Assembly: GCF_000012385.1 (NCBI RefSeq)
Contig: NC_007940.1
Span: 1,116,001-1,180,000, forward strand
Reading direction: 5' to 3'
Length of the DNA stretch: 64,000 nt
Source: Rickettsia bellii RML369-C
Lineage (GTDB): Bacteria; Pseudomonadota; Alphaproteobacteria; Rickettsiales; Rickettsiaceae
In this document: piece after piece, positions 42,509-44,290 of the stretch
Numbering within the stretch: position 1 is the first letter of the stretch
Layout of the letters: each line of letters begins with the position of its first letter
Position numbers and translations under genes: made by a program
The notes under the pieces: generated by a model
Told to the model about the DNA's origin: nothing
Seen by the model: only the letters and a program-made list of their open reading frames with translations
Database searches by the model: none

Positions 42509-42763
42509 ATGAAGCAAAATTTATCTAATCAAATTAATTTGTTAGAAGCAAAAACACATTTTTCTAATCTAATACAACGTGTACAAGATGGAGAACAAAT
42601 TACTATTTGTAAGCATAATACACCGTTTGCTGTACTTTCACCAATAACTCAAAAACCAAAAATAAAAACAGAAGATATAGTTGAACAAATAATGGAATTT
42701 AATAAAGATAAAACACTAGCACCATATACTATAAAAGAACTTAGAGATGAAAGTAGAAGATGA
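42509..42763 (+). CDS. Phd/YefM-family antitoxin without a toxin partner
   Basis: This 84-residue protein has the Phd/YefM pattern QINLLEAKTHFSNLIQRVQDGEQITICKHNTPFAVLSPI followed by a charged C-terminal tail. Such antitoxins bind their promoter DNA and neutralise a PIN or Doc-type toxin encoded immediately downstream. Here the next in-frame ATG (42760) gives only about ten codons (MNKKTQNILQ, then stop), and a palindromic repeat carrying an IS110 insertion follows. The toxin therefore seems to have been lost. The antitoxin itself is intact. Confidence 0.8.
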   Translation: MKQNLSNQINLLEAKTHFSNLIQRVQDGEQITICKHNTPFAVLSPITQKPKIKTEDIVEQIMEFNKDKTLAPYTIKELRDESRR

Positions 42764-42835: not shown

Positions 42836-42928
42836 CATCCCGTGATTTATGAACTAGAGCCAGTTAAAAATACTAATAAAATTAGTATTTTTTATTATTT
42901 TCTGGATCTAGTTCCCAAGCCACGGTAT
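42836..42928. repeat. RPE-like palindromic repeat interrupted by the IS110 element (left part)
   Basis: The left arm is GTCATCCCGTGATTTATGAA; the right arm ends ...AAGCCACGGTAT at 42928. Uninterrupted copies continue CCACGGGATGACA. Here the expected GATGACACCG is found only at 44130-44139, on the far side of the IS110 element. The repeat is therefore the insertion target. Confidence 0.75.
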
Positions 42929-42946
42929 TGTAAGAAAAGAAAGTGA

Positions 42947-42952
42947 TATAAT
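42947..42952 (+). promoter_or_regulatory. -10 box (TATAAT) of a junction promoter formed by the circular IS
   Basis: TATAAT lies 18 bases inside the left end. In the integrated element the matching -35 position holds GGTATT. When the two ends are joined through the AT core, TTG of the right end (44128-44130), AT and T (42929) form TTGATT exactly 17 bp upstream. IS110 circle junctions are known to create such a promoter for the bridge RNA. Confidence 0.55.
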
Positions 42953-42989
42953 ATAAGTTATAAATGTAATATAAACATTTATAAGAGAG

Positions 42990-43173
42990 TGTTAATACCC
43001 TATATAATGATATAGGGTATTAAGCGGGCATAAGCGACCGTCACGGCATAGGTTTTATACGACCGGAGTCATCAGGTACTATAGCCCGACTCTCGAGAAG
43101 TTTGAATAGTTGGAAGGGATGCGATAAGCACGCCCGATTACAATCCTAAACAATATAAAATCTCGAGGTACAT
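42990..43173 (+). ncRNA. Candidate IS110 bridge RNA (two guide loops)
   Basis: A perfect 10-bp 5' hairpin (ATACCCTATA 42995-43004 with TATAGGGTAT 43011-43020) is followed by two loop domains. The first is closed by CGGGC/GCCCG (43025-43029, 43084-43088), and the second by a TCTCGAGA-type stem (43091-43098 with 43161-43168). Loop 1 carries CACGGCAT (43042-43049), matching left target CACGGTAT at 7 of 8, and GGAGTCAT (43065-43072), the complement of right target ATGACACC at 7 of 8. Loop 2 carries ATAGTTG (43106-43112), identical to the right end of the IS, and TTACAAT (43138-43144), the exact complement of core plus left end. The order and orientation are those of target and donor guides in IS110 bridge RNAs. 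The 3' stem overlaps the transposase ribosome-binding site. Boundaries are approximate. Confidence 0.72.
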
Positions 43174-44131
43174 ATGATAAAATATCACAAACATATAGGA
43201 ATTGATATAGGAAAAATATAATTTTGTAGTAGGAATAGAGGGCATAAAAGATACAAAAGAATATGAGAATACAAGTTCCGGTATATTTGAATTTATTAAT
43301 GATAATAAGGATATTTTAGCAAACTCTCTAACTGTAGTTGAAACAACAGGCGGATATGAACTAGAGTTATTGTATAGCTTATGTGAAAGAGGTTATGTAG
43401 TACATAGAGCAGATGCAAGAAAGGTAAAGAATTTTATCAGATCATATGGTAATAGTGCAAAAACAGATAAGTTAGATGCTAAAGCATTAGGATTATATGG
43501 TAAGGAGCGAGCAGATAAGCTTGAAGTATTTAAGCCTGAATCAAAACAAAATATACAATTATTTCGGTTAGTACAAAGACGGAATGATTTAAAGCAAATG
43601 TTAGTTGCCGAAAAGAATAGATTACAACAAGCAAATACAGATAAGTTTGTTAAAAATAGCTGTATAAATATGATAGATGTTTTAAGTAATCAAATTACAG
43701 AGATTACTAATCAGGTAGAAGTGATTATATCATCAGATCAGCTGTTAAAAGCAAAGCATGAGATATTGAAAGAGATAAATGGCATTGGTAATATAGTTGC
43801 TTTTGAGTTATTAATATTATTACCGGAGTTAGGGAAGTTAACAAGACGGCAGATTGCTTCTCTTGCAGGGCTTGCTCCAAAAGCTAATGATAGTGGTAAA
43901 TATCAAGGATATAGAAAGGTAGGACATGGTAGAGCAGGAGTCAAGCCTATACTATTCCTTGCTGCTATGTCAGCCCGTAATAGCAAGACTTCTGGTTTAA
44001 GACTCTTTTATGAGCGACTCATTAACAATGGTAAAAAGAAAATGGTCGCTCTTACCGCTTTAATGCGTAAAATTATTGTCATCGCTAATGCTAAATTAAA
44101 ATCTCTTCTTTTTAATTTAAAACATAGTTGA
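43174..44131 (+). pseudogene. IS110-family DEDD transposase (recombinase), frameshifted by one A near the start
   Basis: The start ATG 43174 follows GAGG at a good distance and encodes MIKYHKHIGIDIGK, containing the first catalytic Asp. An extra A in the A-run 43212-43216 then leads to a stop. In the +1 frame the protein continues YNFVVGIEGIKDTKEY, VVETTGGYE (catalytic Glu), the NSAKTDKLDAKAL Asp segment, a coiled-coil linker, and the C-terminal Transposase_20 domain with NGIGNIVAFELL, ASLAGLAPKANDSGKYQG and HGRAGVKPILFLAAMSA. The stop TGA uses the first base of the AT core at 44131, so the gene fills the element to its right end. The restored product is about 318 residues. Without frameshifting the element is probably immobile. 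Confidence 0.88.
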
Positions 44132-44290
44132 TGACACCGTACGTGCTTTTCGATCCACGCAACAATGCCTTCCCGCATAGGCGGGAATGACATAGTGGTA
44201 TTTTTCAAGCCATACAACAACACTAATTTGATGACGACTTTCGATCCACACAATAACATCATAATGATGTTCCACTATTAAACATTTCAA
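44131..44290. repeat. Remnants of palindromic repeats to the right of the IS
   Basis: ATGACACCGTACGTGCTTTTCG resumes the interrupted repeat and is followed by TTCCCGCATAGGCGGGAA (a short hairpin) and by two more copies of the phrase TTTCGATCCAC.CAA.AAC (44148 and 44240). No gene is seen in the 309 bp between the IS and the next gene. A degraded relative of the 11892-11998 repeat occupies about 44352-44424. Confidence 0.55.

Follow-up and report, generated by a model that had tools for sequence, protein, structure and literature searches.

A probable bridge RNA in an IS110-group element of Rickettsia and its correspondence to one form of a dispersed palindromic repeat

The window analyzed here, a 64,000-nucleotide stretch of Rickettsia DNA, contains an IS110-group element of 1202 bp at positions 42929..44130; this element and all of its parts described below lie on the forward strand. 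The element begins with TGTAAG and finishes with CATAGTTG, and these ends are consistent across aligned copies and vacant sites. A non-coding 5' region of 245 bp (42929-43173) lies upstream of a DEDD recombinase gene (43174..44131), whose stop codon borrows the A of the core dinucleotide. On the left, the element abuts the target flank CACGGTAT (42921..42928), which ends in the core AT (42927-42928), while the right target portion consists of the core AT (44131-44132) and GAC, together occupying 44131..44135. An earlier note made from the sequence had placed the element and its 245-bp non-coding end at these same positions, and its letters and coordinates proved accurate. To the left of the element is an 84-amino-acid ORF (42509-42763) whose translation resembles a Phd/YefM-type antitoxin.

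In the window copy, the recombinase gene is broken after 15 codons. Of the 27 copies or pieces in the host genome, 12 keep an uninterrupted frame of 318 codons, and the family assignment was made on one such intact copy (L012). Its product matched the Pfam families PF01548 (DEDD_Tnp_IS110) and PF02371 (Transposase_20) and combines a DEDD RuvC-like domain with a C-terminal domain carrying a conserved serine, as expected of the IS110 family. Similarity searches related the recombinase to the solved transposases of IS621 (E 6e-23) and ISCro4 (E 2e-22), and Ser240 and Gly241 are invariant across 15 recombinase homologues. Hence, the claim that this is an IS110 element holds at the family level through the intact copy, although the window copy's own recombinase is interrupted. 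The long non-coding end of 245 bp upstream of the gene and a stop codon that finishes in the right core assign the element to the IS110 group. Membership in the IS1111 group was rejected, since the RNA region of that group sits downstream of the gene.

The non-coding end is predicted to fold into a 5' hairpin (42992..43023) and two loop domains, as the earlier note had described, with a folding energy of -54.9 kcal/mol compared to a shuffled mean of -40.1 (z -3.84); only 1 of 200 shuffles folded equally well. A structure with two internal loops is common to 15 relatives. The putative target-binding domain (43025..43088) is closed by CGGGC/GCCCG and contains a left target guide, CACGGCAT (43042..43049, subtype A), identified by copy comparison and covariation, and a right target guide, GGAGTCAT (43065..43072), whose complement is ATGACTCC and whose effective match is ATGAC. 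The reported agreement of the left guide with the window flank at 7 of 8 positions was confirmed for the window's C guide, while the commoner U guide fits the same flank at 8 of 8. The right-guide match holds mainly over AT and GAC; the next guide base predicts T, and most flanks in the host genome carry A.

The putative donor-binding domain (43089..43169) holds a putative left donor guide, ATAGTTG (43106..43112), identical to the right end at 44124-44130, and a putative right donor guide, TTACAAT (43138..43144), the complement of the core AT plus TGTAA. Both segments are present where the earlier note had located them, and the order and orientation of all the guide segments agree with the published IS621 scheme (PMC11208160, PMC11208158). 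The two donor guides are invariant in 15 of 15 RNAs and the element ends are likewise invariant, giving covariation nothing to compare; the donor half of the bridge-RNA reading is consistent with the element ends. No bridge-RNA family of Rfam matched the window stretch, where six weak matches all fell below gathering scores, or four relatives, where one tRNA was the only match. The predicted closing stem of the donor loop (43160-43169) pairs the GAGG that precedes the gene start, and folding at this point could hinder translation of the recombinase.

The 1,522,076-bp host genome contains 27 copies or pieces of the element, 25 of them with both ends. The left flank is exactly CACGG[CT]AT in 24 of the 26 copies having a left end (the exceptions are L017rc, with TACGGTAT, and L015rc, with CACGGT lacking AT), and the right flank starts with ATGAC in 25 of the 26 copies having a right end, L025 being the exception. 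Save for these three copies, we did not find the same loop 1 in unrelated flanks, a result that the earlier note had named as contrary to its reading. The genome also contains 31 vacant CACGGYATGAC sites, compared to none for a reversed-pattern control. Among exact full sites, the element occupies 22 of the 53 that have Y at the variable position and none of the 241 that have G or A there (p 6e-19), and restricting the same test to four independent left contexts gave 4 of 35 occupied (p 2e-4). CACGGYAT itself occurs 141 times (64 for the backward control); once 24 left junctions, 26 guide copies within the element, and the 31 vacant sites with GAC are subtracted, 60 vacant sites that lack GAC remain. 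CACGGYAT sites with and without GAC differ in occupancy (p 4e-8, with L025 taken as the single non-GAC insertion). Because occupancy differs both at the Y base and at GAC, both target halves count. Within the element, the guide-coding DNA reads CACGGYAT followed by AG instead of GAC, which would spare the guide DNA from insertion.

The presence of CACGGYAT at almost every left end could also be read to mean that this sequence belongs to the element, with the ends misplaced and the guide match internal. The 31 vacant CACGGYATGAC sites speak against this, as do relatives that keep a TGTAAG-like left end after differing flanks; alternative element ends were rejected on these grounds, and we regard such an arrangement as extremely improbable.

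Dispersed palindromes, GGATACCGTGGTCAAGCCACGGTATGAC being one, carry the target site as their 3' arm. CACGGNATGAC occurs 272 times in the host genome (241 of these sites have G or A at the variable position) and 102 to 198 times in each of four other genomes of the genus, being frequent also in genomes without a hit to the RNA model (102 in G001, 198 in G004, and 113 in G011). The target is thus a multi-copy host repeat, dispersed and often palindromic, as proposed previously; "RPE-type" is the earlier note's label for it. Because the site lies within a palindrome, the recombinase might recognize the hairpin formed by the DNA, or else the DNA sequence directly, making the RNA matches coincidental. 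A perfect hairpin arm is found at 16 of 30 vacant sites (30 of the 31 were examined) versus 1 of 26 occupied sites, so the hairpin is not required, and guides change along with targets among related elements, which contradicts direct recognition. Hairpin recognition was rejected on both counts, and we consider this alternative very unlikely. As for the suggestion that the repeat offers safe intergenic targets, 23 of 27 copies have no ORF of at least 80 amino acids within 50 bp of the examined end, and an ORF lies within 12 bp of an end in L017rc, L020rc, L025, and L026; since the basis is ORF calling, we regard the suggestion as plausible.

Guide subtypes could be assigned for 26 host copies: 8 carry CACGGCAT and 18 carry CACGGTAT. 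Six of the 8 C-guide copies, the window copy included, occupy mismatching T sites. U-guide RNAs acting in trans could account for these mismatches because U pairs with both T and C targets through wobble; later conversion of the flanks would also explain them.

The flanks themselves bear signs of shared history. Regarding NON-INDEPENDENCE of copies, a CTAGTT arm is found on 21 of 26 occupied left flanks versus 2 of 30 vacant sites. One left-flank variant is adjacent to the element at 11 of 11 places in the genome, compared to 8 of 41 for its sister variant, and two right-flank words always occur beside the element (5 of 5 and 4 of 4). In a four-gamete test of 15 markers, comprising 3 markers in the flanks and 12 columns within the element (some representing one linked indel), 48 of 105 pairs were incompatible. 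Variants confined to the element's flanks and incompatible markers indicate that the 26 flanks do not represent independent insertions, and a count of guided insertions taken from their agreement would be too high. Recombination has probably involved copies and flanks alike, flanks spreading together with the element, probably through gene conversion.

These patterns raise a reading in which guided entries were few and most host copies are products of homologous recombination or gene conversion among copies of the repeat or of the element, the flank matches then reflecting descent more than repeated guiding. The flank variants, the CTAGTT arm, and the incompatible markers all favor it, while left contexts beyond the CTAGTT group and many differing right contexts also bear the target letters, and unrelated flanks in a more distant genome (G261) have little in common except the guide match. 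We judge this reading to have almost an even chance of being correct, and it is compatible with a bridge RNA. Somewhat more tentatively, two routes may be linked: guide changes (C, U, or G before the core) would switch the element between repeat subfamilies, and homology between repeats would then spread the element and pieces of its flank by gene conversion, with no guided insertion for each new copy. Because the host flanks are partly co-inherited, the case for RNA guiding rests mainly on other genomes.

Relatives of the element were identified by DNA in 9 of 58 genomes (host included) and by a protein profile at 38 loci in species genomes and 2 loci in viral contigs. With a covariance model of the RNA, constructed from 15 sequences, matches were obtained in 24 of 261 genomes from the order, again including the host. 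From 98 loci, 98 model-aligned matches were obtained; dropping one duplicate (L208) left 97 rows, of which 18 were skipped because anchors were missing, and the remaining 79 rows gave 61 distinct guide/flank pairs with 32 guides. Left ends were picked by means of a TGTAAG-like motif, blind to the flank. The 32 left guides matched their own flanks at a mean of 6.49 of 9 positions, compared to 3.50 for shuffled guides (sd 0.25, maximum 4.60), with the signal spanning positions -8 to -1. For 17 right guides, the mean was 3.44 of the 5 positions after the core versus 1.65 when shuffled (sd 0.23). In both comparisons, none of 20000 shuffles scored as high, indicating that the guide/flank match is not due to chance. 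When the guide was slid by offsets of -12 to +24, other registers reached at most 3.3. Programming of the target guides to the flank, as the earlier note had proposed, is thereby supported among relatives.

Individual elements illustrate this correspondence, with identical letters in guide and flank for G012 (GTGAGCGT/GTGAGCGT), G023 (TTGACGGT/TTGACGGT), L186 (CAGAATAT/CAGAATAT), and L149 (ATGGGCAT/ATGGGCAT). In a Rickettsia relative (G002), whose DNA is 88-90% identical to the element in two blocks, CACGGGAT occurs in both guide and flank, so that one base has switched in the two together. Several results run counter to this pattern. In 9 of 32 guides, another RNA register fits the first flank better; 7 of 11 distinct flanks in G244 match at no more than 4 of 9 positions, and several in G227 and G256 at only 3-4; and the number of matching positions out of 9 is 5 for L195, 4 for L152, and 3 for L201. 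Some poor matches may stem from wrongly chosen left ends. All poorly matching rows were retained in the covariation statistics.

The left end also contains a TATAAT box (42947..42952), located 18 bases from its start. Of 37 distinct left ends, 32 have a box with at least four of the six TATAAT bases at that offset; the DNA is AT-rich, and the next-best offset reaches 25 of 37. In a circle, TTG from the right end, the core AT, and T from the left end would yield TTGATT-17-TATAAT. A junction promoter across joined ends is described for IS621 (PMC11208160). Left cores vary (AT, GT, some CT), and AT follows nearly every clear right end among those listed; both features are predicted by top-strand cleavage after the core, as set out for IS621 (PMC11208158).

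Alongside the observed anatomy, copies, target preference, and guide/flank covariation, we propose a model in which transcription, the circle, RNA binding, and activity are inferred. Very probably, the long left end of this IS110-group element encodes a bridge RNA that aims it at the CACGGYATGAC variant of the dispersed palindromic repeat. In the excised circle, a promoter arising where the ends join would drive transcription of the RNA and the recombinase. In loop 1, the left guide CACGGYAT would base-pair to the bottom strand and the right guide to ATGAC on the top strand, while loop 2 would pair with the element's own ends. The recombinase would then exchange strands at the core, so that the target supplies the left core and the donor the right one. 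The window copy, with its recombinase interrupted, would rely on intact copies.

By comparison with the IS621 reports (PMC11208160, PMC11208158), the Rickettsia element resembles that IS110-group element in placing the RNA in the left end, in a 5' hairpin followed by two loops with the target loop first, and in guide orientation. The likeness also includes, by alignment, a recombinase with DEDD and serine residues, as well as a promoter (putative here) across joined ends, a palindromic-repeat target, and a nearly invariant core T. The two differ in target and in core, which is AT here and CT in IS621. In 14 of the 15 aligned RNAs, the left donor guide stops short of the core, whereas the IS621 report places the core within each pairing. 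ISPa11, ISPpu9, ISPpu10, and ISRm19 are likewise IS110-family elements inserted in dispersed palindromic repeats (REP) (PMC1525189) but occupy other hosts and repeats, and ISPa11 belongs to the IS1111 group, with its RNA downstream of the gene (PMC11187229). The seekRNA of ISEc21 is similar by description, being of IS110 type and upstream of the gene with guides for both target strands (PMC11187229).

Insertion of IS110 elements in REP sequences (PMC1525189) and guide RNAs of the family (PMC11187229, PMC11208158, PMC11208160) are thus already published. Literature on Rickettsia together with IS110 or bridge RNA yielded, in the partial texts covered, no bridge-RNA or target analysis of this element, with most subscription papers and all preprints outside the scope of the search. 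The mechanism is known from other bacteria, and the Rickettsia element is a well-supported new example with an informative natural series of guides, extending bridge-RNA targeting of palindromic repeats to Rickettsia. The system amounts to a natural experiment, with relatives whose guides differ by one base and with hundreds of vacant, near-identical sites alongside tens of occupied ones, and specificity can therefore be read from genomes.

Other observations concern individual relatives. L065 (in G019, reverse strand) spans about 240 bp and comprises a left end, the RNA, and a right end with no recombinase gene, resembling a MITE; its left guide matches at 7 of 9 positions and its right guide at 6 bases. 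At L214 (G225), the right end is followed by ATTGTAAGTTGT, a left-end motif, apparently reflecting head-to-tail copies or insertion at an element junction. In another family of the order, 11 genomes of one genus (g78: G152, G182, G188, G209, G211, G225, G227, G238, G244, G256, and G261) have 1 to 13 listed RNA matches each, several with many copies at unrelated flanks, and these genomes are well suited to gauging how much mismatch is tolerated in nature. L152 and L153, from MAGs labelled Alphaproteobacteria and Rhizobium, seemingly lie in GC-rich palindromic repeats, and their right guides show agreement over the first 6 and 7 bases, respectively.
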